Source: Mugil cephalus (Eukaryota; Chordata; Actinopteri; Mugiliformes; Mugilidae). Taken from it: a DNA stretch of 64,000 nt. A program made the translations under genes and the position numbers. The stretch lies in assembly GCF_022458985.1 (NCBI RefSeq), contig NC_061783.1, forward strand, positions 5,796,413-5,860,412, read 5' to 3'. Under the pieces are notes generated by a model. The model saw only the letters and a program-made list of their open reading frames with translations, did no database searches and had not been told where the DNA came from. How positions within the stretch are numbered: the first letter of the stretch is position 1; each line of letters opens with the position of its first letter. Of the stretch, positions 3,894-48,599 are shown one piece after another.

Positions 3894-4557
3894 TTGTGAT
3901 GACATCCAGAAGCAAGAAAAAAATTATTCACAAGTTATTTAAAATCCCACAATGACATTTATAGCCGCGCTAATAACAGTAACGAACAGTAGGTTTTTGT
4001 TTCTTACAGCAGCCGCTCACTGACAATTTCACTTAGAATATGTAAAATCACCCCCAGGAGGTTTATTAAATCTAAAAGAACAGAAGCAAGTCCGGATGCG
4101 ATTTCACAACTTTGTCTATCTCTGTGTATGACGATTGTCTGACTTCAGAAAATATTTATTCGTTAGATTATGTGTCTGACAACCTTGCACCAGGATGCCG
4201 TAAGTTTTTCTCAGTTAAGCACAAAAGACTGAAGGAGTTAGTCTAGCTATGTAAAAAAAACTAAATGCACTTCAAAACCTCACCACCACAAAGATTTCAT
4301 ACATAAAATCTATGTAAGATAATTTGCGGTTTTAGGAATGAAAGAGTGTTGCTGTAACAGCACGCTGAGGTGGTGGTGGTTGTATTTTTTTCACCTTAGA
4401 AAGTGGCACGTTAGCCATTTCCTCCTTCTTGCCGTCTCAATGCTAAGCTAACCTAATACATTCCTAGCCCTGGCTTTGCAAAGGACGAATGTTACTCAAA
4501 ATGAGACGCTCCCTGGCGCTCTATAACAGCACGCGGGCGTCCTCAGACTGCACTCAC

Positions 4558-7500
4558 TTGTCCTCCTTGGAGCGTCGTTTCTGGGAGCTCTTTGGTCGCC
4601 TCTCACTGCCCAGGCACGGCGCTCCGCTTGGCCCGGTGACCCGCACAGACTCCAGACCTTTGGAGGATTTCTTGAAGGTAAACTCCACGGCCTCGCCCTC
4701 TCTGAGGCTGCGGAAGCCCTCCATGTGTAGTTTGCTCTGTTAATGAAAGAGAACGATGATTATTGGAGGTGAAACAATGAAGACATCAGATGCAAGCTGT
4801 CTTGTGGCTACATCCTCGTGCGAACAACCACATGAGGAAGATGGGATTCGGCCAGTTGTTATGAATTCGTAGAACTGCTGAGAACTAAAGCCGTTCTCGT
4901 CTGCTGGGGATAAACCAGCCCCAAAGACCCCTCAGGCTTTCTATGCAAGGCCCATAGAAGGGACGCATGGAAACAGAGCCATGCAACATATCATTATGAC
5001 CAGCTTCCTAATATTGTGTAGGTCTCCCCTGTGCCTCCAAAGCAGTTGTGACTCATTTCAGGATGTCCTGTGATGTTTAGCAACACATTGTTGTTAGTTG
5101 AGGATCCTTTGGGTCCTGTGGCTTCAGGGGAGGGGCCTCTGTAGATCAGGCTTGTTTCAGTGCATCACACAGATACTTGACCAGCTTGGGTTCTAGTGAA
5201 TTCAGAGGCCAGGTTAACACCTCGTGCTGTTCTTCTTGTATTTTTTTTTTCAAGTTGTTCCTAAACCGTTATGTGTCATTGCTATGGGCGGGTTTAGAGT
5301 TAGGGTTAGGGTTAGGGTGGGGGTGGGGGTGTCTGGTCTGGTCTAGGTGGGTGGTAAATGTCTAAGTAACGAATGCCAGGTACACAAGATGGTCTTCTCG
5401 GAGGCGTCCATGTTGTTATTGTCATGTGATCAGCGTCTAGTCGACTTCCTGCCTAAAGCGTCATGGCACAACAGTAAAGGCGACCAGTTGACTAGTCTGT
5501 ACAACTCCTAGTGTGTGCAGTAGCTGACTAGCAACGGAGAGAACACCCCTGAATGTAGTCCTCTCTACCATGACATTCCAACTGTCCAGACAATCACTGT
5601 ACATCAGCATTTTCAGATCTACTGCTGGTGCAACTAACCACATGGCAACTCTTTGTCCAATTGCTATTTGTCCAAACTGGTTTACAGTGTCAGTTGTCAC
5701 CTCCTTTCCAGTTGCCAACACTGACTCAACATTTGCGTAAATGCTGCATGAGCTGAGACACATATAGCCAACCAGTCAAGGAATCCTTGTAAAAAAAAAA
5801 AATCCAACAGCCCTGGTAAAACATCAAGGCTATCACGCACTCCTCCTTTCCTCTCCTCTTCTTGTGTGTCTCCGGCCAAACCACCAAAGCATTCTTAACC
5901 CCAACCCCCTCCTCTCTACTTCCTCAGCACCACCACCAGTCTGTCCATTTGGTCTCAAGCTGACCACTGCACTGGAGGATGTGAGGAAATGACTCGGGGG
6001 AGGAGTACAGATCTGGCATAGTAACCAAATGAGGTGGAAGAAGGATATTATTATTATTATTATTTTTTAAATTAGATCCAAATGTAATCTGAGGGAGTAC
6101 CGGTTGCATTTCAAAGTTTTTAGTTGTTGTTTCTGCCATATTGTGCCATAAATATTTTTTGCTAAGCACAATGTTCAGTCGTTCAGCCAGATATCGTACC
6201 TACATATGTACAGTATATCAGCATCAAACTGGGAGCAGAGGCCAAAAATATTCTTATCTACAAAAAGGGGGCCTTGCACGAAAACTGTGAGAACCACTGC
6301 TCTACACTGAGGAGACTTTATATTTTTAAGGATGATGAATATTTGACAAATCATCCATGGTCACTTGAAGCTATGAGGCTTCTTACTGAGAGTTTTCCTG
6401 TATCAGCTTTGGGCTAATACACTTAACTATAATGCACACAGGAATGTAAGCTTGCTGAGCAATACAAATAACATAAAAGCATTTCAGAAATGTTGTTTGT
6501 TTATTTTTGGGTGGTTTGGGAAAGATTATTCTGATTATGAGCAGTTTATAATTATAACTGTTGAATCATCCAGCTCTCTGACAATCACTGCCACTTTTTG
6601 GAAGTTTCAGGAGCAGTAGAGCTCCTGAAAATTAAGACTGAGTGGGGCCCAACTTTAAAATTTGTGAAGTTTTTGGTGTAAGAGAAAAGTAATTTCTCTA
6701 AAAGTACTTTCAGCGAAGTTAGAGTCAGTCCAGAGTACTTCTGAGTTGCTAAAACACACTGTCACCCAGCAATGGGCCTCGTTGCATCAGACATTGCATC
6801 AGAGTTATATATAAGAATAAAATGATAAGGGACCTTCAAATCTATACTTGGCGACAGCCGGTAAAAGAGGACTCAAACAATCTCATGAGACCAGAGTTGA
6901 CAGTTTGTTGGTTATTATGACATTATGGCATCAAATCACAAGTCAAACCGTTTATATGGTGTTCACTGGAGGAATTATATTTAATAAAATACACTGATGG
7001 GATATGTAGTCAGATAGGGTCAATTTAACAGGAGATGTGTTGAGGATAAAGACAGCAGTGTCGCATCATTTGAAAACATATGTAACTGAGAATACAGTTT
7101 TACCATAGAGGTGTTCCCATCCTAATGCAGGGCTGGTGGCATGAAACCGTCACAGAGGATAAAAAAAAATGATAGACATATTTTGTTGTTGCGAGGAAGC
7201 TTATAGTTTCCTCGTGGCTATGCAAAGTTCTTCAGAGATTACTTAAAGGGGCAGAAGGTTAAGTGGACGGTGAAGTTATAATTTATTCACAACTGCTTTC
7301 AGTGCAGTTGGTCGTATTTAGAGGTTTGGGATGGTTCCACTTCAGGTTTAGCAGACTTAAATCCACCTTTTGATGGCAGGATTTCTGAAACAGATCGAGC
7401 CACTTCCACCTGTATTCCTTAAGTTGCTACCAGAACATCTAAATTTGCTGCATTAGAAGGATGGAAAACAATAGCTGATCCACAGTGCAAGTAAAGAAAG

Positions 7501-9863
7501 AACGCTGGTGGTTCTACACAAGCTATGAGCCTGATGTAATTCATTTCTAGTAATATTTAACTGGTCACCAACGATGCCGACCGTCTCTCCTGTGATCAAA
7601 CCTCAACATACCAAATTAACCTCCACACACTGCACCGAATGCCTAAAATAAGCATGGAAATGTCATCAGATGATTTACAACAGCACCGGTGCAGGGAAAC
7701 CTGATCCCTGAGCCAAAAGGTTCCACGTGGGGTTGGAGGGCCGGACTGAGACTTTAAGGATTGGGTGGGCTCCCTGATGCTTTAATGCCTTTATAACAGG
7801 AAGCAGGGTTGGACTGGGGGGGAGGAATGAGCCTTGTTATCTCTGCTTCAGCCTCTAACCCCTTTAAAACAGAAATGTTTGAGCTCTGAACCCACCGCCC
7901 CTTTCCACTGTCTGAACATTTCACAGCAAAGGTCTGTGTGTGAGGTGAAGTAATGGTAGGACACTGTGATGGGCCTGGTTGTCTTAATATCTGTTTATCT
8001 TAAAGTCATTTTATCACCAGGGGAATTCCCCCAGCTTTTTCTCAAGCTTAGGTTACCGTGGGCAGTTTTTAACACATTAACCGGGCAAATGAAACAGTTT
8101 GACAGACAGAAAAACAATCTTCCAGTTGTTTTTCTCTCAATAGAACCTTATTTAAGATGTTCTGTTTGGAAATAAAAATGGTTTAAACACAGTTAAACAG
8201 CCAAATAGAGTTGTCTTTCTATTTTAATTACCATTTCTTCCAAAGAAAACAAACGTAATTGATCATTAGATGCTATTTAACTTTTCTTAATTAAGTTGAA
8301 TAACTTTTACTTGATCCATTGAACAATACAACGAGGTCCATGCAAGCGCAAGTGTGAGTTTTGGCACACACTCCGGGCCTACTTTAAGCAAACACGACCA
8401 CTCAAATCTGGGAATCTGTAATGAAGCCACTCGCTCAATGCTTAACATGGTTCCAAAGCAAAAACTCACCTGGTGGACGAACACATCGAGCGGCTGCTGC
8501 AGAGGAGCTCCGTCCCTGCTGCTCATGGACAGGAAGCCGAAGCCCATCCGCACGTTGAACCACTTGCAGACGCCGCTGCCCCGGGACAGACCCGCGTCCT
8601 CCTCCTCGCCCTGCGCGCAGCCCCCTGCGCAGGTGACAATACAGTGTGATGTCCGTATGCGTCTGAAGCGTCATCCCCACAAACAAGCAGCCGATTCGAG
8701 CGAAAACTACACAAACGACACACCGCTCTATACGCTAACTGCAACGGCGATTCTGTTCATATCCAGTTGATCTGCATAATACTTTCGAATTCATTCATTG
8801 TCCATTGTATGCAATAAAGTTGTTGTTTTTTTCCCTTGAAAAGGCAGGACAGGAATTAGTTGACTTCAGTCGACTGTTTTCCCATCGTGCATGGATATCA
8901 CATGGTAACGAGATTTGCGCATACACAAAATCAGAAAAATATCAATCAGTGACAATGAATTATAGTAGCAAAGTGAAGTTTGGGTGGATAGACTGGTAAA
9001 TCCTAATCGTCAGTAAAGTTCACACTAGATTCTGCAATGACAGCCAGTATAAGAGCAAATTAACCCCGTGGATTTTTTCCCCTGCTGCTTCTGATGTCTT
9101 TCTATAAGACATACAAACATGCAGGAAATTCTTTGATTTTGTATTTGCTGCAGTCACAAGACACTGTAAATAGTGGCCCGGGACCCTTTGAGGTCCAGTG
9201 CCTCTCATGTTTAAAAACAATGATTTTAACGATTAATCGGACGATTTATCTCTCGGTTAGTGGATTAATCGGATAATCTACCATCCCTAAAGTAATATCT
9301 TATTCAAGCAGTCAAAGAAAATCAAACATATTCAATTTGGCCCACTATCGAATAAAGGTTCAAATATTCAAATTTAACAATAATTATTTATTTATTTTAT
9401 TTATGTATTTGCTTATACTAGTCCAATAATTGCGGCGTTAGTAATTATTAAATAGCTGTGGGTCCGTCTAGCTGCTTCTATATTGTTTTAAAACAGGACC
9501 TTGGCATTAAAGCCTTTCTGTTCAAGCTCTCGTCCCAGGTGAGAGGGTTGGACTTCTCACATTAAAAGTTTAATTGGTCTGTATTACCTGCGAGCCTCTG
9601 ATTGGAAGCGGAGCCCATACCGTCTCCGCCGTTTACTCCCGGCGTCAAAGCGCACCGTCAAAGCCTCCGGTTTCCCTTCCAATCTACCTCAGCAGCAACA
9701 CAATCATGTTTTCTCTCCCCCGCACCCCAAACCTCGTCTGTGGAGGTCTCCCTGAATGGACACCCACCCACCAATCCCTCACAAAAAAGACCATGGAAGG
9801 AGAAGAAAAGCTTCCTTTCAGTCCCTCGTTTCTTTCAGTGCATCCCCTCATACCTTCTGCCAT
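4558..9863 (-). CDS. lin28a: lin28a-like RNA-binding protein, 5' three coding exons (3' end off the left edge)
   Basis: LIN28 proteins bind let-7 precursors and mRNAs through a cold-shock domain plus two CCHC zinc knuckles, and control developmental timing. Coding exons read on the minus strand: 9863-9854, 8624-8470 and 4736-4558, with phases that join cleanly (10 nt; 2+153 nt; 177+2 nt) and GT-AG ends. The assembled 115 residues start MAEGGCAQGEEEDAG and contain the whole cold-shock domain, residues ~21-95: VCKWFNVRMGFGFLSM (RNP1), PLDVFVHQ (RNP2), SKLHMEGFRSL and EAVEFTFKKSSKGLES. The linker ends QKRRSKEDK. SKLHMEGF, EAVEFTF and QKRRSK resemble LIN28A, while the MAEGG start and PCLGSERRPK resemble LIN28B, so LIN28A is favoured but not certain. 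No zinc-knuckle exon was found between 1 and 4557, so it must lie beyond the left edge. The family call is very secure. Confidence 0.93.
4985..5402 (+). mobile_element. TIR element family 1, copy 1 (carries telomere-like repeat)
   Basis: Shares CTAATATTGTGTAGGTCTCC, CAGGGGAGGGGCCTCTGT, AATTCAGAGGCCAGGT and the CATTGCTATGGG block with the better-preserved copy at 13962-14464. It lacks the ~60-bp stretch before CATTGCTATGGG and has degraded ends. No transposase frame is present, so it is a non-autonomous remnant. It lies in lin28 intron 3, immediately left of exon 2 by about 3 kb. Confidence 0.7.
5300..5317 (+). repeat. Interstitial telomere-like (TTAGGG)3 tract
   Basis: Three perfect TTAGGG units follow a degenerate TTAGAG and are followed by two TGGGGG units. 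The tract sits within TIR element copy 1, at a point where the other copies read GGGGTGGGGGTG. Confidence 0.85.
6238..6304 (-). mobile_element. hAT-type transposon end (remnant)
   Basis: The minus strand reads GAGCAGTGGTTCTCACAG and then a G/C-rich run containing GGCCCCC. This is the usual look of a vertebrate hAT terminal repeat (CAGTGGTTCTCAA and similar). Only one end is recognisable, and the family assignment is tentative. Confidence 0.4.
8625..9853 (-). other. lin28 intron 1
   Basis: Bounded by GTATGAGG (donor, minus strand) and CACCTGCGCAG (acceptor). No other exon is recognised. Open frames of 119-132 codons on both strands at about 9570-10040 overlap each other and show no protein similarity I recognise; I treat them as chance frames in GC-rich promoter DNA. 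Confidence 0.6.
9854..9863 (-). CDS. lin28a: lin28 first coding exon (10 coding nt, MAE + G)
   Basis: On the minus strand CCCACCATGGCAGAAG is followed at once by gtatgagg. This gives a near-ideal Kozak start and a good splice donor after ten coding bases. The leftover G joins the GG that opens the next exon at 8624 to make Gly, giving MAEGGCAQ. Known LIN28B proteins begin MAEGG, and human LIN28A has GGCAK at the equivalent junction, so both sequence and phase fit. The exon is too short to be found by ORF length. The 5' UTR extends to higher coordinates and its start is not determined. Confidence 0.72.
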
Positions 9864-12800: not shown

Positions 12801-15800
12801 CAGATGTCAGTGGCAGGCATTGTAGCTATTTGCACCTGCAGTGTATGTGAATTTGATATTTTACCTTTATATACAGTATATTAACTCCACACAGCTCATA
12901 ATATTTTTGATTATTCTGATGACAAGTGTTGCAAGCATAGTCGTAGCTTATTGTGCCACCAGATGGCACCAGTGCAAGAAAAATGAAAACATATTACCCT
13001 ATTTTTTTATGGTCTTTCTTGTGTGTCTGCCTCTGTATGTACATGCAAAACTGCGTAAAAAATAATGTGGTTAGTAAAATGAATTAATTAAAGTGACATT
13101 TCATCCACAGAAATACATACCGAACACAACTCTCAACAAATGTGTGTCATACTAAGAAGCATAAATCACATGTGGAAGCGTGAACGTAGCCCTCTAAGTT
13201 CTGATTGTCAAACTTTATTAAACACGTCCATTGTCAACGCCACACATTATAGTGTTAACTACCCTGTTAGGAGGCACCTGAGTGAACTTAATACGCTTCT
13301 CTGGAGATTTGTTATTTCTGGCTGACCCAAAATGTAACCCACATGGATTTGATGGGGTTTTATAACATTTTTTTTTTTTTTTTTTTTGGCTTTGTGCCAT
13401 TATTGCATAATTGTCAGTGGAGAGAAATCGGGCTTAATGGAGCGAAAGAGAGAGAAAGAAAGACAGAGGGGACTACGTGCAGCGAATGACACAGGCTGGA
13501 ACTGAATCAGCACCTGGCTTTTTAATGGACAAAGCCAAGAGAAGACTTTTATAAGTGATGGATGTAAGGATTTGGATGCCCGCTCAAATAATGTTTTGGC
13601 AATGTGAAAGAGTGTCCGCATAGAGGCCTGACCTAAATCCCACACAGGAAATATATCTCGTACATCACCTAATGTTTAGTTTTGAAAGTCTACTAGTCAA
13701 TGATTTAGTGTGACCATGAAAGCAGTCCTGTTTAAAGGCAAAACTGTGTTGTGCAGTTCTGAGAACTAAAGCACAGAGTCTCTAGTGAAACCATGTTGGG
13801 TGTCCATTTACTTTTGGTTTTCCTTTTCTTCTGTCTGTCTGTTGTTTTAGTATTTAGTATTTATTGTGTTTATTTGTTGTTTGTTGACATTTTATTGGTA
13901 ATTTACAGTATATGCGTTTCTATTAATCACAGAGGCCCGTGGATAACAAAAGTGTTTACCAATCAGGCATAACATTATGACCACCATCCTAATATTGTGT
14001 AGGTCTCCCTTGTGCCTCCAAAAACAGTTGTGAACATGGGCTTTCTGAGGGTGTCCTGTGGTACCTGGAAACAAAATGGAGTTGGTGGGGGCCTTAGGGT
14101 CCTATGGGTTGAGGGGAGGGGCCTCTGTGGATCATTCTATAGATACTTGATCAGTTTGGGATCTAGTGAATTCAGAGGCCAGGTCAACACCTTGTGCTGT
14201 TCTTCATGTGTTTTTGATTGTTTCTAAAGCATTTGTGTGTGTTTCTGTGTCAGGCTGCATCCTGCTGGGGATGGATGCTGCCATCAAGGAGTGTCATTGC
14301 TATGGGGTGGGGGTGCCTGGTCTGATCTAAGTGGGTGGCACATGTCTAAGTAACATCCACATGAATGCCAGGTCCAACAGTTTCCCAGCAGAACACTGAA
14401 TTGTATTCAAGATGGTGAACGATATTCACTTCTCTTGTCAGTGGTTTTAATGTTGTGGCTGACTTTCAGAAATCCCTGCTCTAGCTATCAAAATTCACTT
14501 GCGGGTGTCTGATGTGGAAATCTTGCTTCCAGTTGGTTTGCCAAGTACTGCTGCCTATATCAGCACAAATACGACCACCACCATTTTTAAGAGGACGGGT
14601 CAAGCAACAGTAATTAACTGTTTTGCCTCTCTCACACAAAAATGGAGCACTGAATGCACCAGAGGACAGTTTCAGCACTAGGGACAGCTCCAACCGCAAA
14701 GTAACAGTTTCCAAGAAGCCATTTCTGAGCAGGTTGGCACTGTGCCTGACAGTGAAGCATTTACAGTTGGATCATGTTGGTAAGCGAACATGATTATTGA
14801 TAAAAACCAGTGACCAGTTAGTTATAAAACCTGAGGAATAGTAAGAGTCGCCCAATGTCAGTGCAATGTTGAGTCAGCGAGATCATCTAATATTTCACTC
14901 CTATTTATGTTGCCTGAAAGTATGTAGATATGTTTAAATATGAGTGTGTCATAGTGTTAGATAGTAAGGAGTCAATAAGATTTACATATAGCTAAACACT
15001 AACTTTTATTAATGAGCTACTTGAAACATAATTTTATGTTGTGAGAATGCTCTTCACAATATCAAGCTTAATTGCTTCTAAACTGCAAAAAGTTTTTGTT
15101 AACTTAAACTGTAAATGCCATTAAAATAACCTATCCATCTCTGCTTTGTTTTGTTTTTTATCAGCTGTCGAAGCGCACGTCCTACTTCATGGTGTCAGTG
15201 GTATTTAAGTTTGGCATTTAATTTGACAACAATTTAGTCTGACATTTAAGGGCAGCATATAAATATTTAACACATGCTTTATGGCGTGCTGCAAAACATC
15301 CAAATGTTGATTAATGACTAGCAGCCAGAACTCCGGCCATACATGCCCATAAATGCAGCCTGCTGCATTTAAACAGAATGAATGAGAATAAAATACAGCT
15401 TCCCTCAACAATAAAAACTGAACTTTCATAAACACTGTGCTTATAGCAGTGTACTGCTACATATGTGGGTTATGGTCCTTTTATTAAACAGACACAGCTT
15501 ATAAATGCTAGACTGAGACTGGAATGAAAGTATTAGAAATCAACAAATAGTAACTCTTAGCTCTGAAAGGGGTAAAATGAATTTGGTCTTTTCTGTAATT
15601 TGCTTTACATTTTTACGGAAACCGAACTTGATTTGAGATATAGTATAGTATGGTAAGATTGAAATGATAAGTGTTAGCCCACCTCTCTCCAAAATATGTC
15701 GATAACTACAATTTAGTGCGGCCGCTTGTTTCTTCTCAAGCAGAAATATTTCTTTGTGATTTCACGGAGAACTAGCAGCTCGACACTTTTTCTTTAAAAA

Positions 15801-17337: not shown

Positions 17338-19053
17338 ATGACTCGGCTGCGCAGAAAAGCTCTGGTTGCGCTTTTCCTCTTCACCCTCTTCATTTTCGGG
17401 ACCATGATGGGTCTGAGGACGCTGAAGCCCAGCGACGGCTTCTCGGACCTGGCCCCCGGCATGGACTTCATCGGGGAGAGACACGAGAGGAAACGGCTCG
17501 ACGAGAGGGACGTGGTGGTGTCGCCGGGCCAGTCCCACATGGGCAGCAGCGACACCAAGGTGGTCTTCACCAAATCGGACCGAGACTACAGCATATTCTA
17601 CGACGTGCACATCTTCTACTACCTGTGGTACGGCTCCCCGAGCGTGGACAACAAGTACATCCACTGGGACCATGTGCTGGTGCCGCACTGGGACCCCAAG
17701 ATTGCGGCCAGCCACGCTCAAGGGAGGCACACGCCACCGGAAGACATCGCCTCGAGCTTCTACCCTGAGCTCGGACCCTACAGCTCCAGGGACCCGAAGG
17801 TGCTGGAGTCACACATGGCCCAGATAGAAGCTGCTGCAGCGGGTAACAGATGTTGCAACACTGGCTTTACATGCACACCCACAAACCTCCCTTTAACTAA
17901 TTGAAATTCTAACAACAGTGAGGGACATAAATGTTAAATGCACCAGAAATACTGTTAGAGAGCAGAATCAGTCATTGTGTAGCCAAGAAGTAGTTATGTT
18001 TTATTGTACATGCACTCTAAAAGTGCTGGAAACTGCCTTTAAAACATGTGTTATTCTTTCTAGTAGCAACAGTCCCAAAAATGTTAATAAACCATAGAAC
18101 CAAGAAACATGTTGCATATCTATTACAGTAGAAGTGGATTATTAGAACACTTGTGCGAGGAGAGGCACAGAAACAGGAGCTAATCGCATCGTAATCATCC
18201 CAAACAAATACTCCTCGGTGAAGGTTAAAATTAAGCCAGAATGAGGTCGCTTGTTGTGGATGAGGCATTACGTTCAGGCTTGTCCACCCACGGCTATTAA
18301 CCAGTAGTCAGCCCCAATGCCCACACGGCTGCCTTGAGCACTCACCGCATGTGCAGGTTCATTATGGTGCCAAGTAGTTCACAGCCACATCAGAGCACAG
18401 TTCTCTTAACTTAACCTGCTCTCGATGCACGCTCCACCGATTCCGAGTGCTGTTCAGAGATAAGCACGGTTCAGTTTGGTCGCCTGCCCCAGTTCAGCCC
18501 ACGCTGGATCACCAGCCGGGCGACCGACTGTAAACACGGCAACAGCTCTGAGGTCGCCTACTCCCACTGAGAACCCCAGATGGGGGGATTCACTGTCGAT
18601 TAGCTTTTGGTGAACACATAAATGTATTGCACAAGAACGTCAGCCACTTAATAACAAAATCAACTCCAGAAGAAGCTGTAGTAGTAGTCCCTGTTCTCAT
18701 GTAGTACTAGTGCACATTAGCAAATTACATTATTTTACCTGTCCCCTTAAGGCCAGTTTTAAGTTTCTGGATGTGTGTTTGTAGCGTGACATTTGCGCAC
18801 TCTTCTGTGTGTACTTCAGTCTGGAGGATGTGTAAGCTGTAAGATGTTGAACTTTGTTCCACACATGCTACAAAACAACAGGGTGGAGACCTTCTGACAA
18901 CAGAAGGAGAGCCGCTTTATGTAACCTGTTTGTGTGGATAACGTGAAAAAGCTAAAAGAGAAAAGTGTCTGTTCAGCTGCTTAACGAGGTCATGGCCAGT
19001 GGTGTGGGGCGGCACAACAATTATCTTGACACAAAATTACCACAAATATCAAA

Positions 19054-19145
<92 letters not shown>

Positions 19146-19153
19146 CATCTATC

Positions 19154-19196
<43 letters not shown>

Positions 19197-22100
19197 GTGT
19201 GTGTATAAATCCCTATTAAAATATAATGTTTTTATTGAGGCAGACTCTAGATTTCTAGATGTGTTTTGTTTTTCACTATCATCTGTCTGTAAATGGGGGG
19301 AAAAAACAGTTTCAATCCCACTTAATTCATCAATTATGTGGATGCAAACCTAACAGAACATCAGATCTCAACAGAGCCTTGTACTTGTGCAAGGAACAGG
19401 ATGTAACATTAAGCTACGATACACCCCCACATGCCTGCAGCCTTGAGCGGCGACGTGGCACTTACTGGAAGTACATCCCACAAACTAAGAGCTTGACTAC
19501 ATAAAGAACACTGCAACTGTGGATATTAACCCTTGCAGCTTAAAGGGCACACACTACTACCTGCAGCCACGCTGAACACTGGCTTCGGAAAATAGTATTT
19601 ACGCGTGCTACGGTGAAGACAAATGGAGCAAGCAAAGGTCATCCTGAGCCTTTGCCAAAGTTTTGAATCGATGCTCCAAGTCAAACAAGAGCAGAACTGA
19701 AATGGAAGGAAATGTTTATTTTAAATATGAATGATGCAACTGATAGTCTGTGAAGGTTCTGTTCAGGTCATCGCATATATAAAAAAAAATCTCCATGTTT
19801 CATTTAAGTAGCTTCTACCAGTTCTAATAATATCATTACCAGGTGATTTTCAGGTATATCATTCGTAGCTTTCACAGGTGTTAAGGAGGAACTCTGTTCC
19901 TAAAAGTCATGATTACCTTTACAGTTTGCCCAAACAAAATACTTAATTACATTTAAATATGTAATATGCGTGTTCCTGTCCGCCTTGCTCAGTTCCTCAT
20001 CTCCATGTTGTGGTTGTGTAGGGGTGCTGGTGTTGTCGTGGTATCCTCCCGGAGAGGCGGACGACCACGGAGAGCCCACAGAGGACCTGGTTCCTGCAGT
20101 CATGGACGCCGCCCACAGGCACAGCATCAAGGTAACTGGTGAGACAACCGGTATGTTTTTCCCTTTCTGCTGACTTACTGAGTGAATGGGTGGCTTGGCG
20201 TGAGAGCTGACTGTTGAAGTTGAGAGCACTACTGATGTGAAATTTGTGTCATCAAGTTTGTGTCCACGCTAAGTCTGAAAAAAATATTTCTGTGTCAACT
20301 GTGTGGAGCCAATCGATGTGTTTATTTATGTTGGCATGACGATTGACAAATTCCTTTACTTTTAGTACTAAATCCACAGCATAAAATGCTGTGTTACAAG
20401 TAAAGGTCCTGCTTTCAACATGAAAATAAAGTAAAACATTTAAGTAATCCATGGCTGCTGTACTATTATCAATGTATTATTGTACATTACTGTTGTGGTT
20501 GGTTGAGGTTAGGCTCACTCTCAACAGTTTTATTTCAAAATAAGGACATTTGATATTTTTTGGAACTCAATTACATTGTTTGTTGTCCCTAGAGACCAAA
20601 TTTAAGGAAAAGCACAAAATTCCAATATTTGACCTTGAAGAAAGTTTTTGGCATGCCAAATAATTACGTTCCTTATGGATTTACATGCATATCTTAATGT
20701 TTAAGTAACTCCACCTACTGTATTAAAAAGAATAAAATGACTGAAAATGATGAAAAGTGGCCGAGTATAAGATCACTCAAATGCTGGTTATGACAGTCCA
20801 GTCAGACAAGTCAGAAAAGTAGACGTGAAATTTCTTCTTTCAGTTAGTGCTTCTTTTTGACAGTGTCACTTTGTTTTTCCGTCTGATGGCAGTCTATGAT
20901 GTGAGCAGCTGACCAGTTGTGCTCATAAAAGCCTGCTATTTGTCTGTTAACATGGAATTAGAATTGAAAATTATTTTAAAATCTGCTTGCTATCACAATG
21001 TGATAACAAATGAACATTAAAAATGTTAATTATAGCTCATCATTTGAGGTTTTTAAAGGAAATATTCATGTAGTACCAACACAAAGGAGACAAGGAGGTG
21101 GGGAGATACCATAGTAACAATACAAATGCTGACATGAATCCCTTGTATTGTTGGAATGACATTCAAGCAGGCACGTCACTTCTACGACATAGGTAAGACA
21201 ATTTTACGATGTAGGTATGGTGCAGGTGATATGAAGTTATGATGTAGGTATGCCATGGGTATGCTCTAGGTAAGATGAAGGTGTGGTGTAGGTATGACAT
21301 AGTTATGGTGTATGTAAGAGGAAAGTAACACATAGGTATGGCATGGAATAGGTGAGATGAACGTATGGCGCGGCTACGTTGCAGGTCACAGGGTAGTTAC
21401 AACAAACATCCGAATTTTCTGTGTCGCTTTGAAAATAAATGTTGAACCTCAACTCCATCATGAGCCACTCAGTTCCAGACACCATTGTTCGAGGTACACA
21501 GAGAAGCTCTACACAGCTGAGCAGTCGCTGACTAACGTTTTAGTGACGTAATTACAGAACAATGCTGACATACTAGCACACAGGTATAAATGCTTTCAAA
21601 CCTCCATATGACATAGGAGGAAGTGGCTCTCAGTATATTTGTTGTAGGACTAGAAGCCAAGCTTAATTAATAAATGGCACCAAAACAAAACAGAAACTCC
21701 TAAACACAACATGCTAATTGGAGTCAGTACCACCAATATGGCATGCTAGCTAGCTTTGAGGAGATACAGGCGCAGTGGCAGAGGTGTCAGAAAAAACTTT
21801 ATTTATACCCGAAGGGCAATTAGGAGGGTGTGGTGCAGTTACAGCCCTGCTAGTGTGTATTGTATGTTGTGCATGACAGGTCTTGTGCACACATTAACAT
21901 ATTCATGACCTGGGGCTGTGTACCAATGACTCCTGTCTGTCAGCAGTCCAATATTTGTTGGCAAAGCTGAGTTGTGGTGAAAAACAATAGACTATGGTAG
22001 CTTCCTCAGTTCTAGGCAGCGTTGTTGTTAAGTTTGCTGTTGGTCACCTGGTGGATGGTCAGAATTCACTCAAGCTAAACTTAAATATAGGATTAAGTTC

Positions 22101-25100: not shown

Positions 25101-28100
25101 CCTAAATGTCACAATTTATATATATTACATTTTTATTCAGTATCTTTTGGTATACTTGCCCTTTACTGTTTGTATCTTAGGGTTTGTCAGGTCTGCTATG
25201 GTTGCTATGGTTGGAAGCATTTGTATTTGCATTTCCCAGTGCAGGGTAATGAGCTGACTGTAATGTCTAACAAAGTTAAAAAGGATTGCAAAAGCAAAAA
25301 GATGTAATGTGACAGAAATATATTGCTGGTCAGATAAGTTCAACATATAAATGTAAATGCAACATGTAAATACAACAACCTTTGAGTCGTACAGCGTTTA
25401 TATGCTTCAGTCTACCTCAGAGACAGCCCTGGGGTCGGCTTTTTTGTACAGTGGCTTTTAAAAAGCTCTGCGGTGGACGTGTGGTACAGCACAGTTTCAA
25501 GGCATAACTTTTAACTTAAACATTTTCCAGTATTTGAATTCGGTGGATTGCGATCGTAGGGGATTGGAGTTGAGCTCCAGATTGTGGTGCAAGTCTTTTT
25601 GGATTCAGTCAAGTGGAACTAAGAGCTGTGAAATTTCTGACTCAAGTGTGATTTAAGTCCACACCTCTGGTCCATACCAGGACAAACTGTGATCGGGATG
25701 TGCTGGTACTCATAACTTAAAGGATCTCCTACCAACGTCTGTGTGAAAGATACCAAAGGCACGTCAGAGGACTCAGTGTCCATGCCTTGATGATTCAGAG
25801 ATGTTCTATGCACACACAAAGAACCACTGACACATGAGGCATGGTCATAAGGTCTTAGTTCACTGGTGTATATTACCATTCTTCACTCTGAACATCTGTT
25901 AAAAAAGGATCGTCACAGGGTTCTGAAAAGCCGAGACCTGACATGAGAACGAAGATGGTTGGAATTTTTCTTTTTGTTATGCTAAGATATGTCTGTTCAG
26001 GTCTGTTTTAGTCTGGCTTTTTTCACGTCTTCTTTTTTTTTAAAAAAAAAACGAATGAATGCACTTTGTGTTCAGGTAGTTTTTCCCCCAATCAGGTCCA
26101 ACATTGTAGACCACCAATTCTGATTTTTAATTTGAACTGACCTGCTTACTTCCCAGTGCTCAAATAAGCCTTGACTGGTTCTGTGTTCTGTCAGACCTAT
26201 GCACCTGCTATTCAACGTTTTAAACACACATCATCACAGAGCAGCTATTCAGAAAATAGTGCATAGAAAGCTACAACTGCATAAATGCTTCCTCTGACTG
26301 ACGCTAGGCTTCCTCGGAGCAGAGTACGATGCTGTTGTGATGTCGAGTAGCTTGTGTGTTTGAGTATTCACGCGAAAAACAAAAACATCCACTGCGGAAC
26401 AAGTACCATCCAGAGTGGGCACGAAATAACACTTCAATCAAGGCTGTGATTCAGAGGGAGCACTGCCAAATAATTAGCGAGGTCCACAGACATGTAATTA
26501 AATGCCTTTTTAAATACTGGCTGTCTGTCACAACTACTAGCCCACATGAACAATGAGGATTCACAGCATAACCCCTTATTTTACAGGTTTTTGTGCATTC
26601 AGCTGATGCTTTTCACTAACAATCTTATTCACATGTGTCTCTGCACAGGTGGCCTTTCACATACAGCCATACAAGGGCCGGACGGACCAGAGCATGCATG
26701 ACAACATCAAATATATTATTGACAAGTAAGCTCTTTTGCTGTGTCTGCTTACCTCTCTGCTGGATCTGTTTTCTTTGGCTGACCTAAAGGTCAGGTCGAG
26801 CTCTGCAGCTAGAAGCCTGTAGATCGGTTGGACCATAAAGCCTCATAGGGGAAAGAAAGGGTAAAGGTAGTTTAATATACAGTGTCGCTTTAAAAGTGTA
26901 GAATTTTCTACATTTCTGCATAAAATTACTCAAAACATCCAATTATTATCACATGGGTCTTGAAAGCAGTTGCAGAGAACCCAATTCAACTAAGGAGACA
27001 GAGATATTACAGAGATCTTTGAGTTGCGAAAGACTGCAAAGCTTTGCCGGGAGGGATTTTTGCCCATTCCTTGGATAAAGAACCACTTCAGTTCTGACAT
27101 GTTGGTGGTTTCCTCACATGAACTTCTCGCATCAGGATGTTCCTTCCAATTCATTGGTCCATCAGTTATAGGACTCCAGTGTTCAGAAAGCTCCTTTGTC
27201 TGTGCCATCATAAACTAAAAATATCTATTGTGAATATCAGATAGGGTAACAAGGCACTGAATGATTACTGTTATTGGCTTATATGTTACAATCCCACATG
27301 CCAAGATCCCAGGCAAAACGTTTAGAAGTCCAGTCTAGCTGAAAACTAACCAGGAGGCTAGCAGTCAGCTACCAGCTAGCAACACGCCAGCTGCCTAGCC
27401 TAGCCAACAGCAGTGGGCAGTGGGCACCTCGCATCACAGATGTTTCGATAAGTTAGGCCCACAACACCTTAAGAAGGCTTAACAGTGGGTTCCAGCGTCC
27501 TGGAGTCACCACCTCTCCATGCCGCCACCGCTCGGCTGTGTGCAGAAATGTAAAATTCTGAAGCGCACAGTAAGTTTGAGGTTGAACTGTAGACACCTCT
27601 CTAGATACCTCCTGCTGTATTGGTTTAGAATGTAGCTATTTCTCTGGCTTCAACAAGCTGCAGTAACGTATGTCCGTGATGGTTTCCCCATGACTCAAGG
27701 ATTGTATGAAATTTATTCCATTTAAGAGAGATATAGGGATGTGGGGGCAATCATTTTACGGTGTGACTAGAAACAGGAATAAAGAGACTCAATGATGCCA
27801 TGTTTAAAATGATACAAGGCTGGATGAAAATCAAAGGGCAGGCTTTGTTGGGCGTCTTTGAGAGGAATACCATTTCTGGACTTTATATCGCTGCCAGTGT
27901 TTTCGGGAACCCACTGTGCCGACCATCTGCAAATGAAAGAAACATTGGAGTATCAAAAAAAAAGAGAGAAAAAAGTCCACGGTTGCTTTTAAACAAGCCA
28001 TAAATATTTTCTGAATGTGCAATTCATAGCTGTATTTGAGTCAGAGTATTCAGTATCGTCACATTTGGAAATACATGTACACATAGTTACACTTAAAACA

Positions 28101-29365
28101 GGCAGCGCCATGGCCTCTAGCCTGGATACCAAAGTGATTCACGGTCATACTGATGTACTTAAATGGTAATGCTGATTTACGTTACAAGGTTTTCCATCAC
28201 TGCCATATGGCTTGTCGCTGCTTTCACTGCAAATGGGAATGCGGCCTGAGCCTGCAGGCTTGCCGCTTAGGAAATATAAAAAGTAATTTAAATTGTTTTC
28301 ACCGACATAAAAGGTTTTGCTCGGGAGAGTAATCACTCGGTTGTGCAGTTTTCCTCTGCTCAACAGAGCATTTTAGAGTGGCTGTTATGCAGCCTGCAAC
28401 ACATTACTGCGAGATTCACAAGAAACGGCTTAAAAGCTGCACGAACACATCTACGGGCGTTTTGATAACTATATTTTGTTCCGATTCAGGCAGTAATTAG
28501 TGCAACACGGCCTCAATAATACAGATTGATCATACTTTTGTGTGAAATTTATATCTCAGAAAATAATCTAAATGATATTGATATTGATTTCTGTGGTTCA
28601 TGAACCGATTTGCTGTATATGAACACAACGTCTGATCAAGCATCTATGTTATACGTGGAAAATCATGTTTTAAGGAATGTTGACTTTAAATGCTTTGAGT
28701 CTGAGTATCTTTCTCTAATTTTCCCCAGATACGGAAAACACGGCGCCTTCTACAGATTCAGGTCAAGCACAGGACGGGTCCTCCCACTGTTTTATGTATA
28801 TGACTCCTACCTGACGCCAGCTGAGTCCTGGGCAGAGCTCCTGACAGCGAAAGGCTCCCACAGTGTCCGAGGCACGCCTTACGATGGGATTTTCGTTGCC
28901 CTCATTGTTGAGGAGCGCCACAAACATGACATCCTCGCCAGCGGCTTCGACGGCATATACACCTACTTCGCCTCCAACGGCTTTTCCTTCGGCTCGTCCC
29001 ACCAGAACTGGAAAGCCATCAAGGCCTTCTGTGACGCAAACAACCTGATCTTTATTCCCAGCGTCGGCCCAGGCTACGTTGACACGGCCGTTCGACCGTG
29101 GAACAACCACAACACCAGGAACAGGGTCAATGGACGTTACTACGAGACGTCCCTGCAGGCAGCTCTGTCTGTCAGACCAGAAATCGTCACCATCACATCC
29201 TTCAATCAATGGCACGAGGGCACACAGATAGAGAGGGCTGTACCCAAGAAAACTGTGACTCGCTTGTATCTAGACTATCAGCCCAACCAACCAGGCCACT
29301 ACCTGGAGATTACACGGCAATGGGCAGAGAACTTCAACAAGGAGAAGGACAAATGGCTGATGTGA
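17338..29365 (+). CDS. maneal: Mannosidase endo-alpha-like protein (GH99, Golgi type II membrane protein)
   Basis: Four coding exons: 17338-17842, 20022-20131, 26649-26725 and 28729-29365. All introns are GT-AG and phases join to 442 aa (human MANEAL is about 457). The N-terminus MTRLRRKALVALFLFTLFIF has a basic patch and a single signal anchor, residues ~8-24, then GLRTLK as in human MANEAL, then a stem to ~85. The GH99 domain spans ~88-435: FYYLWYG, YIHWDH, PHWDPKI, SSFYPELGPYSSRDP, VLVLSWYPPG, AFHIQPYKGR, LPLFYVYDSYL, FIPSVGPGYVDT, RPWNNHNTRNR and the catalytic-loop region ending WHEGTQIE. Family members cleave alpha-1,2-mannose from glucosylated N-glycans in the Golgi. Oddity: the EWHE motif reads QWHE (Q391, E394). 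The start is chosen by match to the MANEAL N-terminus. Identity is certain; catalytic activity is doubtful. Confidence 0.96.
17843..20021 (+). other. maneal intron 1
   Basis: Bounded by GGTAACAG and a TTGTGTAG acceptor. Contains the large (CTAT)n microsatellite at 19054-19196; the long Tyr-Leu-Ser-Ile frames over it are an artefact of the repeat. No other gene is seen. Confidence 0.8.
19054..19196 (+). repeat. (CTAT)n / GATA tetranucleotide microsatellite
   Basis: About 36 CTAT units with two single-base interruptions (CCAT near 19144 and TTAT near 19164), ending in GTGTGTGT. Expected to be highly polymorphic. Confidence 0.97.
21181..21390 (+). repeat. Degenerate ~10-12-bp minisatellite
   Basis: Many imperfect repeats built on GATGTAGGTATG: GACATAGGTAAG, GATGTAGGTATGG, GATGTAGGTATGCC, GTGTAGGTATGACATAG and CACATAGGTATGGCATGG. 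Spacing varies, and the array decays at both ends. Confidence 0.7.
23238..23420 (+). mobile_element. hAT-like non-autonomous element
   Basis: Begins CACTGGTGTTCAAAGGGGG, then GATCTGCGACCCCTAGGGG, the usual start of teleost and vertebrate hAT repeats. An internal block, CATGAATCCAACATATTTTA, recurs in reverse at 30186-30205. The right end is not well defined. No transposase. Confidence 0.55.
24410..24434 (-). other. Possible first exon of an unrecognised minus-strand gene
   Basis: The minus strand reads ATGAAAGGCCAGCGAG and then gtaagaca, a start codon with A at -3 and a near-perfect splice donor. It lies in CpG-containing DNA about 60 bp downstream (minus strand) of an X-box at 24485-24498. 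The encoded MKGQR matches nothing I recognise, and no partner exon was found between 20132 and 24400. It could be a nested gene, a non-coding RNA or chance. Confidence 0.25.
24485..24498. promoter_or_regulatory. RFX-type X-box
   Basis: GTTGCTATGGAAAC is close to the imperfect palindrome bound by RFX factors, which drive ciliary genes. It stands inside maneal intron 2 in a locally GC-rich patch, with a splice-ready ATG on one side. Confidence 0.45.
26726..28728 (+). other. maneal intron 3
   Basis: A 2-kb intron between ACAAGTAAG and TTTTCCCCAG. No exon, RNA gene or clear repeat is recognised in it. The stretch 28140-28450 has the even composition of a possible conserved non-coding element, which cannot be tested here. 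Confidence 0.6.
28729..29365 (+). CDS. maneal: maneal last coding exon with altered catalytic motif
   Basis: This exon encodes about half of the GH99 domain, from KYGKHGAFYRF to the C-terminus KEKDKWLM and stop. The acceptor is TTTTCCCCAG; the first base completes a Lys codon begun in the previous exon. The codon at 29207-29209 is CAA (Gln) in FNQWHEGTQIE, where GH99 enzymes have Glu; the second acidic residue, Glu at 29216-29218, is kept. Substrate-pocket motifs such as SVGPGYVDT and RPWNNHNTRNR are intact, so the fold is under constraint. Confidence 0.95.
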
Positions 29366-29756: not shown

Positions 29757-29925
29757 CGTACGTGTGTTTACTGTTTACGGAGAATCAGTGTTTGGTGTCA
29801 AGGTAAAGCGTGACTTGAGTACACAGCCAGACCCTTCAGTCACTTCTAGCAGATAATCACATTAAATGGTTATATTGACTCTTAACCTCTTACAAAAGGC
29901 AAACAAATTCACCTGCCAACCTGAA

Positions 29926-30547
29926 GAGACACAGGAGAAGTAAATAACATTGACCATCTTATGACAATTCAGTGTTCTGCTGATAAACTTTTTGGACCTG
30001 GTATTCATGTGGATGTAACTTAGGCCAGACGTCTTCAACCCCCAAACTGATGGAGAGCTTAATTAGGGACCCCCTACCAACTATATGTGTTCTATATTAA
30101 GCTCGGCCTAGTGATATTATTAAATATACATTATTATCATCATTTTCCATTCAATATTAAACTATCCCTTATCCCTTTACTAAAATATGTTGGATTCATG
30201 TCAATGTGTATTTAAAGAAATTTCTATTTGTGTCAGGAAAAATAAATACATGAAAATGGTTTAGGAACAACTGAAAAGACATGAAAAACAGCACAAGGTG
30301 TTGATCTGGAATTCAATTTACTAGATCTTAAACTGATCAAGTATCCGTGACTTGATCCATAGAAGCCCCTCCCCTCCACCCATAGAACCCTAAGGCCCAC
30401 ACTAACAACATCTTGTATCCAGACACCACAGGACGCCCTCAGAAGGTCCATGTCCAGTCTCTGATGAGTCACAACTGTTGTGGACGCACTAGAGAGAGCT
30501 ACACAATATTAGGAAGGTGATCATAATGCTGTGTCTGATCCGTGCAT
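29926..30547 (-). mobile_element. TIR element family 1, copy 3 (interrupted)
   Basis: Minus-orientation copy: TCAGTGTTCTGCTGA, GACCTGGTATTCATGTGGAT, then a break at ~30026-30235, then AAACAGCACAAGGTGTTGA, AGCCCCTCCCCTC and CACAATATTAGGAAGG, ending GTCTGATCCGTGCAT. The interrupting DNA is a hAT-like element, so this copy is the older of the two. Confidence 0.68.
30026..30235. mobile_element. hAT-like element nested in TIR copy 3
   Basis: Starts CAGACGTCTTCAACCCCC and contains GGGACCCCCT and TAAAATATGTTGGATTCATG, the reverse complement of a block in the 23238-23420 element. About 210 bp with no coding potential. Confidence 0.55.
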
Positions 30548-31887: not shown

Positions 31888-31960
31888 TGTTTCCGCCCGG
31901 TTTCGAACCGGGGACCTTTCGCGTGTGAGGCGAACGTGATAACCACTACACTACGGAAAC
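31888..31960 (-). tRNA. tRNA-Val (CAC), copy 1
   Basis: The minus strand reads GTTTCCGTAGTGTAGTGGTT at the 5' end, has anticodon CAC in a CCTCACACG loop, T-arm GGTTCGAAACC, and an acceptor stem closing with GGAAAC plus discriminator A. It is 73 nt with no intron. A-box TAGTGTAGTGG and B-box GGTTCGAAACC are intact. A short T4 run follows about 10 nt downstream (AAAA at 31874-31877 on plus). It looks functional. Confidence 0.97.
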
Positions 31961-32341: not shown

Positions 32342-32414
32342 TGTTTCCGCCCGGTTTCGAACCGGGGACCTTTCGCGTGTGAGGCGAACGTGATAACCAC
32401 TACACTACGGAAAC
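32342..32414 (-). tRNA. tRNA-Val (CAC), copy 2
   Basis: Identical over all 73 nt to the copy 454 bp to the left, in the same orientation, and sharing about ten bases of 3' flank (GCATAAACA on plus). It has a stronger terminator, T6 (A run at 32324-32329 on plus). Intact internal promoter boxes suggest it is active. Confidence 0.97.
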
Positions 32415-36717: not shown

Positions 36718-39700
36718 CTACAACAAGCCCTGTCTCTTCAGATCCTCGTAGGTCTTCTTGTTGACCACGTTTCCGCTCGAGTCCTCGTACTCTTCCTGAA
36801 AGGCACACGTGAGGGGATGAGCAGAGGTTTATTATAATATGAAGGAATTACATCTTGAATCTGTTGCTCCGAGTGTGCACTTACCTCTGTGTCTGGCTGC
36901 CACCGCTCTAACGCCTTCTGGGACTTCAGCTTCGCCCACACTGGTGTTAACAAACATAAACCACTTCTTAAAACCCAACTCGCAAATCACATTCACAAAA
37001 ACGCGTTCACGGCCGAGTCGAGACGGGACTTACGAGAGACGGCGTCCTCGATCTGTGTGACGTTGGCGAAGTGGGCCGTGTTGGGGATTCCCAGACAGCG
37101 CATACCGTGAGCGTGCCTCCACTCCTACAAAACGACAAGGAACTGGCTTCATTTTCAACTCCAAACATGAACACGCCTCCTGTAACATCATTTAAAAACA
37201 TCAAACGTACCGCAAAGTGCCTCTGGAAGGCTTTGGGTCCTCTGTAAGTGTAGTTGCCGCAGATCTCGCAGTTGTAGTTGATGTTCAGGCCGTGGAGTTT
37301 ATAGAGCCAGTATGGGATCGGCTGCAGGGACAAAACAGGAGTCAGCAAACTTTTAAAATTCAGACCAGGAAATGAAATGTGACAGTTAAATCCCTGATGC
37401 TTGTTTGAATAAGGTGATGAAAGTTATTTATAGAAATTAAGTTAAACAGGATAAATTTGAAGCGTCTCGTTTTAAATCACAAAACAGGCGTCAATTCATG
37501 ATCAATGGAAGCATCAGACCAACCAAACACGTATTTCAACCATAGACCATATAAATATGGACAATGTGTCTCCAGTTCTCTGCAATGGCCAAACTGATGC
37601 CATTTTCTCAGAGATACAGGCGGCGCCATCTTGTGACTTTGGAGCCAGAGCCTGATCAGTTTGGTCTGGGAGTGGAACCACATGGAGCCGCAATATCGAT
37701 GACCCACCCACAGTTCCTCTAGACTCACTTGCGTTTCATTTAAGTAATACTATGCTCTGCTTTACCTCCACGAGTTACAAGGAAATGTTGGATTATACAC
37801 TGTACTTATTTATAATTTTAATTTTTTTATTTTTATTTTTTTACAACTTTCTACATCCCACAGAGTAGCTTTACAGAGTGGTTGGCATGCCTGTTTCAAT
37901 AGCGTCAAATAACAAACAAAACTTATCTAAAAATTAACAATTGTAGATACATCAGTATTATTTTAACTACTGAAACCACCCATGATAAATTATTTGACTT
38001 ACAGTGTGCTTTATTGTTTTAGTTGGGCTCAAGTCCCATCCACTAACATGGAGGAGGTGGAGCCTATGATTTAAACTGCAGCCAGCCACCAGGGGGAGCT
38101 CTACTTTGGCTTCTCCTTTGAGGAGCGGTTCTGCCCATGTTTATACAGTCTATGATTTCAACACATGAATCATATGGGTTCATTCCACCAAATGGAGTCA
38201 CCAATGCCAAGAAGCTCTCAAGCAACATGTGAATGGGGACTTGCTGACAGCGCAGCTGGCGGATTTTTTAACTTTCATTTCTAGCAGTATTTCAGTCAGC
38301 AAACAGTCTCTCTGCAGTGTTGTTCTTGTGTAAGTTTAGTACTGTGGGGAAAATCAAATGCTTCACAGGTCTTCTAAAATCTGTATCACTTCGTTCGGCC
38401 CAAATGGCCACTGAACCTTATTCCTTGAATCTTTATAGGCGTTAAAGTCAACCAGGTGTCCCATACTAACAGTTTAACCATAAAAGCCTCTTTCAGAGAC
38501 AGATAAATGTGGGTTGAAACACCACCGGTTCATTTTTACCACACAAGTGAAGCCTCACCTTGCCGTCCCAGCCCAGCGGCAGGTTCTTGGGGTTGTAGAT
38601 GATCTCGTTGTCTTCATCTTCGCTCTCGCTCTCACTGAGCTGCTCTTCCTCCTCCTCCTCGCGCTCCTCTCCGGTCCGGGCCTGCTTCCTCTGCACGTTC
38701 TCGTGAGTCAGCTGCCTCTGTTCCTGCAGCCACCGGCAACGACAAGAGCCCTCATTAAAACGGTCATACCTGAGCCCACGCCGACCTCCACAAGCTAGGT
38801 AACACTTCGCTCAAAATGCCGGATGGAACCGCTCATGCGTTCACTCGATGATGATATACTGACTCACCCCAAGGATCTCCACGTATTCATAGACCTGAGC
38901 TTCCAGAAAGCCAATTTCCTTGTTGCGCTCCGTGTCTCTGCGGGAGTGATGGATGGAAATCGTTATGAATTATATAATGAACGCCATCACGACCATTAGG
39001 CTGAGATGATTGCACCCACTCACTTTTTAGGGCCTTTGGCTTTAGGATTCTTGGCAAACAGGGATGGGTCAAGTGATTCCAGGGATTTGCCTTTAGTGCT
39101 GAAGAGTCTCTGAGCTCTCTCCTCCAGAGTCCTGTACAAACACAAACACACACACACATTATAGCTGGGACACGTGCAGATCGTTCGGCTCTGTTCTTAA
39201 TGCTCATCGTTCAGTATTATTTATCCCCTACACCAATCAGCCACAACATTAGAACCACTGACAAGAGAATTAAATAACATTGTGAAAATACAATGTTGAG
39301 CTGGGAAACTTTTCGACCTGGTTTTCATGTGGACCCACTAGACCAGACCAGGCACCCCCACCCCATAGCAATGACACTCCTTGATGGCAGCAGCCATCCC
39401 CAGCAGGATGCAGCCAGACACAGACACACACACGAAAACGCTTTAAAACGTTGTTGCTATCATTTGCATCTGTTCTGATGTGAATAATTCTTATATGAAC
39501 TCAACTATTCCATCCATCCACCGAAAGCTACAGCTAGAAGATAACACATGGGTCTGATCTAGCCTCTCCAGAGTTTCCCATGCTGTAGGCTGAGCACTGG
39601 CAGCCACAACGAACACATGGACCTCCCTGACATGTGTAATACATAATAGCTGGCTAATAACTGGTCTCATATCAGTCTCTACATTGTCTTCACTGAGAAA

Positions 39701-48200: not shown

Positions 48201-48235
48201 AGTGAATAGCATATATAAAAGTCGTTTTTACACAG

Positions 48236-48599
48236 GCTTGTCCTGCTGAGAAACGTTTGGACCTCCCACGTAGAGCAGACCAGCCACCCCACCCCATAGC
48301 AGTGACACTCTTTGATGTCAGCAGCCATCCCCAGCAGGATGCAGCCTGACACAGACACACAAAAACGCTTTAGGATCAACTCAATAAACATATAGAACAG
48401 GATGAAGTGGCCTCCAAATTCTCTAGATTGTAAACTTATCAAGTGTCTGTAGGATGATCTGTGATCTGATCAATTTTCCTATGAAGATCAAATAAACATC
48501 TATCCACAGAGGCTCCTCCCCTCTCTGATAAGTCACAACTGTTTTGGAGACCTACACAATATGAGGAAGGTGGTCATGATGTTATGCCAGATCGGTGTA
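48236..48599 (-). mobile_element. TIR element family 1, copy 5
   Basis: Minus-orientation copy lacking one terminus: it starts TCCTGCTGAGAAACG, contains CAGGATGCAGCCTGACAC and AGGCTCCTCCCCTC, and ends in an intact terminal repeat, CATGATGTTATGCCAGATCG, followed by GTGTAT. It helps define the element end as GATCGGTGTA. Confidence 0.75.

Follow-up and report, generated by a model that had tools for sequence, protein, structure and literature searches.

The locus raises the question of what a glycosidase gene may still do once its catalytic base reads glutamine. The window, by which we mean the whole 64,000-nucleotide stretch of Mugil cephalus DNA analyzed here, holds a GH99 gene in which positions 29207-29218, CAATGGCACGAG, encode Q-W-H-E in frame within an open stretch of 253 residues. 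Translation and alignment place Gln391 (codon CAA, 29207..29209, + strand) at the position of the catalytic Glu of human MANEA, E404, and Glu394 (codon GAG, 29216..29218, + strand) at that of the second catalytic Glu, E407, which is retained. The reading of CAA as Q391 with E394 intact, made in the initial annotation, is borne out by the 442-aa spliced frame, and the protein has Q391 and E394 where the EW[H/G]E motif has two catalytic Glu residues. Window residue numbers plus 13 give the human MANEA numbers as used in PMC11025385 (391 becoming 404). RNA editing of the CAA codon was considered and dropped, as by the genetic code neither A-to-I nor C-to-U editing yields a Glu codon.

The Glu-to-Gln change is not new and has already been published at the clade level, for CMANEAL of Acanthomorpha. 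In the GH99 survey of Sobala (2023, Glycobiology 33:687, PMC11025385), three GH99 genes are the usual number in Clupeocephala. The third, which the survey names CMANEAL, is described there as a clupeocephalan sister of MANEAL, an ohnolog from the third-round duplication. The CMANEAL proteins of Acanthomorpha have E404Q, likened in the survey to artificially created inactive GH99 variants, and their MANEAL consistently has E404; a further consistent feature of CMANEAL is DDHGE (N197H), N197 being a residue that bonds O4 of the −2 glucose (PMC11025385). The branches of the CMANEAL subtree are short, so that in most species the gene has probably escaped decay; that its product no longer hydrolyzes and that it acts as a lectin are put forward as predictions (PMC11025385). 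The question whether the change is confined to this fish, is a feature of fish maneal or holds for MANEAL generally, left open in the initial annotation, is thus answered in print: it belongs to CMANEAL of Acanthomorpha.

The window gene has four coding exons, all on the + strand, with GT..AG borders at 3/3 introns, and the spliced frame of 442 aa contains no internal stops and no frameshifts. Exon 1 (17338..17842) runs from an in-frame ATG to a donor GT and encodes a short cytoplasmic tail, a probable signal-anchor, a stem and the start of the GH99 domain. Exon 2 (20022..20131, AG/GT borders) holds Tyr176 (human 189) and the −2 loop DDHGE, exon 3 (26649..26725, AG/GT borders) carries HIQPY, and exon 4 (28729..29365), open from its AG acceptor to TGA, encodes the second half of the catalytic domain and the stop codon. 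The hydropathy maximum of the protein falls on residues 8-26, a segment that fits a type II Golgi protein and is probably the signal-anchor. The Pfam model PF16317 (Glyco_hydro_99) matched protein residues 89-435 with 516 bits against a cut-off of 33, covering profile positions 5-341 of 341, and the alignment with human MANEA is gap-free across residues 90-439. Exon 4 matches GH99 proteins of known structure, and the PDB search matched nine sequences, with a QWHE form of the human protein at the top (6zfn, 6zj1); this form, which we take to be the engineered E404Q human MANEA, outscored the EWHE form (6zdc and six more entries) by 1.4 bits. It resembles the window protein in QWHE but, unlike it, has N197 and E224. 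A long TATC-type microsatellite lies inside intron 1, at about 19049-19195.

Searches of the genome (634,849,253 bases in 24 contigs) with the protein and with Pfam, which gave 3 matches among 4 candidates and 7 exon matches among 11 candidates, respectively, with all counts being lower bounds, found GH99 at three places: C14, which is the window, C11 and C17. The C11 and C17 genes splice to 444 residues each and are 78% and 54% identical to the window protein, the identity to C11 being 69% in exon 1 (tblastn) and 82% in exon 4. At the E404 position the codons are CAA in the window, GAA in C11 and GAG in C17. The N197 position reads CAC in the window (His184, 20066..20068, + strand) and AAC, coding for Asn, in both other genes, and the E224 position reads CAG in the window (Gln211, 26664..26666, + strand), CAG in C11 and GAG in C17. 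From these identities and codons we read the C17 gene as MANEA and the C11 gene as MANEAL; the latter is like the window copy in HIQPY, Y189, four coding exons and a lin28-type neighbor, and unlike it in having EWHE and DDNGE.

Among the three genes, QWHE and DDHGE occur only in the window copy, so that Q404 and H197, the two published marks of CMANEAL, are both found there and neither in the other two, which have EWHE and DDNGE. With E404Q, N197H/DDHGE and coexistence with MANEA and an E404 MANEAL, the window gene shows three features of CMANEAL. It is like acanthomorph CMANEAL in E404Q and N197H, in being a third GH99 gene and in giving no sign of decay, and we found no difference from the description in the consulted parts of PMC11025385. 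The initial annotation called it maneal; CMANEAL, the third-round ohnolog of Clupeocephala, is the better reading, and the gene that we read as MANEAL is the one on C11, with EWHE. A sequencing error or private polymorphism at 29207 would have to alter no more than a single base, GAA and CAA differing by that much, but the presence of H197, the other CMANEAL mark, and the publication of E404Q for CMANEAL of Acanthomorpha (PMC11025385) make this explanation extremely unlikely.

The neighborhood of the gene was compared with a 180-kb stretch of C11. A lin28-type cold-shock-domain gene on the - strand (4557..8670, matched exons 4557-4739 and 8290-8670) stands head to head with CMANEAL. Both exons have lin-28 homologs as their best PDB matches, and the Pfam cold-shock model (CSD) scored the first at 27.9 bits, above its cut-off of 27, and the second at 22.8 bits, below it. 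By tblastn the exons match C11 at 5552509-5552688 and 5556279-5556410, and the C11 lin28-type gene points away from C11 MANEAL, in the same order as in the window. One common head-to-head pair supports a duplicated chromosome block, although it is no proof of one, and would fit an ohnolog pair. A further short match, at 2407-2556, is collinear with those of lin28. Leaving aside the MANEAL exons and the frames that overlap them or the lin28 exons, the rest of the matches between the window and the C11 region resemble dispersed repeats, many of them at several places; repeat-like stretches at about 13895-14465, 29865-30508, 39224-39500 and 48142-48469 each have several matches in the C11 region, the first two flanking CMANEAL. 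Two tRNA-Val (CAC) genes are found on the minus strand at 31888-31960 and 32342-32414, less than 500 bases apart.

The pocket had been described as otherwise intact, which turned out to be wrong at two positions: His stands in place of Asn at residue 184 (human 197), and Gln in place of Glu at residue 211 (human 224). The second of these lies in the H[I/L]EPY motif of active endomannosidases (222-226), which reads HIQPY in the window protein; Glu is found at this position in all five sequences compared from the nine PDB matches (two human forms, three bacterial). Because C11 MANEAL also has HIQPY, the motif is by itself no mark of inactivity. Tyr189, the glucose-preferring form, is present and encoded by TAT in all three genes of the genome, and Y189, D196, G198, H222, Y323, W405, H406 and E407 are identical across the three paralogs. 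The changes of the window branch are not significantly concentrated in the pocket motifs, 2 of 15 falling in 16 of 353 residues (P = 0.14), and on the C11 branch 0 of 22 fall in the same number of residues (P = 0.35).

The prokaryotic relatives of the gene were found with the patterns K[YF]IHWDH and FN[EQ]WHEG, and the residues were tallied in the best 80 of 496 confirmed stretches. The E404 position is Glu in 80/80 of these best 80 of 496, stretches found with FN[EQ]WHEG being able to show E or Q only, with Gln admissible; the E224 position is likewise Glu in 80/80, a tally independent of the search pattern at that site. Among the same best 80 of 496, the Y189 position is Trp in 56 and Leu in 24 (n = 80), and the N197 position is variable, with Lys commonest (36), His in 2 and Asn in 0 (n = 80). 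Given this variability, His at N197 is not by itself a sign of new function. Gln391, on the other hand, is more than a chance state, as the other two GH99 genes of the same genome have GAA or GAG there and the best 80 of 496 prokaryotic relatives all have Glu. A search of viral contigs for further GH99 relatives gave 76 pattern-matching stretches, none of which encoded a relative.

The uniform Glu of the prokaryotic relatives bears on the possibility that catalysis has been kept or gained in CMANEAL, for instance as glycosyl transfer or as hydrolysis at a low rate, if water or some other group took the place of the base. The acid Glu407 is retained, and a study of endomannosidase-catalyzed transglycosylation stands among the references of PMC11025385, which would suit such an activity; the 80/80 count at the E404 position in the best 80 of 496 relatives and the likening of E404Q to artificial inactive variants (PMC11025385) speak against it, and we hold it to be distinctly improbable.

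The evolution of the Gln copy shows that the protein has been constrained. Between the window and C11 genes, 0.106 of the nonsynonymous and 0.706 of the synonymous sites differ in the catalytic domain, and 0.132 and 0.699, respectively, in the whole protein, where the synonymous value is near saturation and dN/dS therefore rough; these constraint figures span the whole time since the duplication, including the period before E404Q. With C17 as the outgroup, 15 derived changes of the catalytic domain were placed on the window branch and 22 on the C11 branch, 28 being unplaced (one of them facing a gap in C17), and the rates of the two branches do not differ (chi2 = 1.3). Relative to its EWHE sister, the Gln copy shows no acceleration, nor is it visibly decaying. 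When drift was simulated as neutral, 11/500 frames were free of stops at 0.1 substitutions per site, and 0/500 at each of 0.2, 0.3, 0.5 and 0.8. That the copy is dispensable and on its way to a pseudogene would have precedents, as only vestiges of CMANEAL are found in three neoteleost relatives of Acanthomorpha and loss of MANEAL is common among tetrapods (PMC11025385). Such a fate is very unlikely for the window gene, with its zero stops and zero frameshifts, normal splice sites, low nonsynonymous divergence and no increase in rate, and the CMANEAL subtree as a whole has short branches (PMC11025385).

A constrained copy with a presumably dead active site could also work through protein contacts, for example by stabilizing or holding MANEA or MANEAL in the cis-Golgi. 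The entire exon 4, which extends beyond the cleft, keeps its high identity to C11, and the parity in rate with the EWHE sister agrees with this. Contacts alone would not require the retention of the eight cleft residues that are identical across the paralogs, from Y189 to E407, and we know of no protein partner of CMANEAL; we therefore see this explanation as unlikely.

In GH99 enzymes, the first Glu of EWHE acts as the base on the 2-hydroxyl, which in MANEA is that of the −1 mannose, and a 1,2-anhydro sugar can form. The 1,2-anhydro route appears in PMC12394665 and PMC4220041, and in the sister family GH71 the replacement of either residue of the acidic dyad cost 200- to 15,000-fold of the activity (PMC12394665). 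As a Gln amide cannot act as this base, the cleavage of Glc-Man from the monoglucosylated high-mannose N-glycan would be lost or very slow. The inactivity of the Gln form is a prediction, and the step from sequence to inactivity is, by analogy, a strong one. The product would be a membrane protein of type II, probably residing in the Golgi, whose GH99 barrel keeps the acid Glu E407, Tyr323, the larger part of the cleft motifs and Tyr189, which gives the preference for glucose at −2; N197H would alter a direct contact to the −2 glucose. HIQPY may lower glycan binding as well as catalysis.

Because most of the cleft motifs and the glucose-selecting Tyr189 are kept, holding without cutting appears to be the likeliest function: CMANEAL would hold the glucosylated glycan uncut, and MANEA and MANEAL would cut it. 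The reading that we favor, and consider fairly probable, is that the gene is a CMANEAL of the acanthomorph type and that its product, dead as a hydrolase, serves in the Golgi as a lectin-like receptor or guard of glucosylated N-glycans. The acanthomorph assignment was drawn from the gene and is to that extent circular. The lectin function of the Gln form is a reasonable prediction; among the literature matches listed on the themes of MANEAL, endomannosidase and lectin, we found no experimental test of it. A pseudoenzyme or lectin had been suggested in the initial annotation, and this idea agrees with the published prediction and with the constraint on the protein sequence, but not all of the pocket motifs on which it leaned are intact. 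Chitinase-like lectins, Klotho and heparanase-2 are comparable in having glycosidase folds that lost catalysis and were kept for another function, and differ from the window protein in their families and ligands.

The second Glu-to-Gln change would be older than the first. As HIQPY is common to the window and C11 copies, E224Q most simply predates their duplication, and human MANEAL presumably reads HIQPY, too. The consulted main text of PMC11025385 contains no mention of E224Q or HIQPY, which may be displayed in its Fig. 7C or supplements. One may tentatively picture that the loss of enzyme chemistry began with E224Q in the MANEAL lineage, earlier than the teleost duplication, and was followed by E404Q in CMANEAL, a sequence of events that we consider possible but rather doubtful. 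If it were true, MANEAL, which is predicted to be active, would already differ in its activity or its substrate, and the path from enzyme to glycan receptor would have had two steps, with CMANEAL at its end. Given E224Q in both MANEAL copies, one may ask if MANEAL acts as a normal endomannosidase, and judging from the motif its activity may differ from that of MANEA.

To the published description of CMANEAL, the present analysis adds a further genome in which all three genes can be compared, the parity in rate between the Gln copy and its EWHE sister and the apparently older E224Q. If CMANEAL binds as predicted, this natural counterpart of the inactive mutant used in crystallography, in a conserved Golgi glycosidase, would provide a clean case of an enzyme turned receptor in N-glycan quality control.
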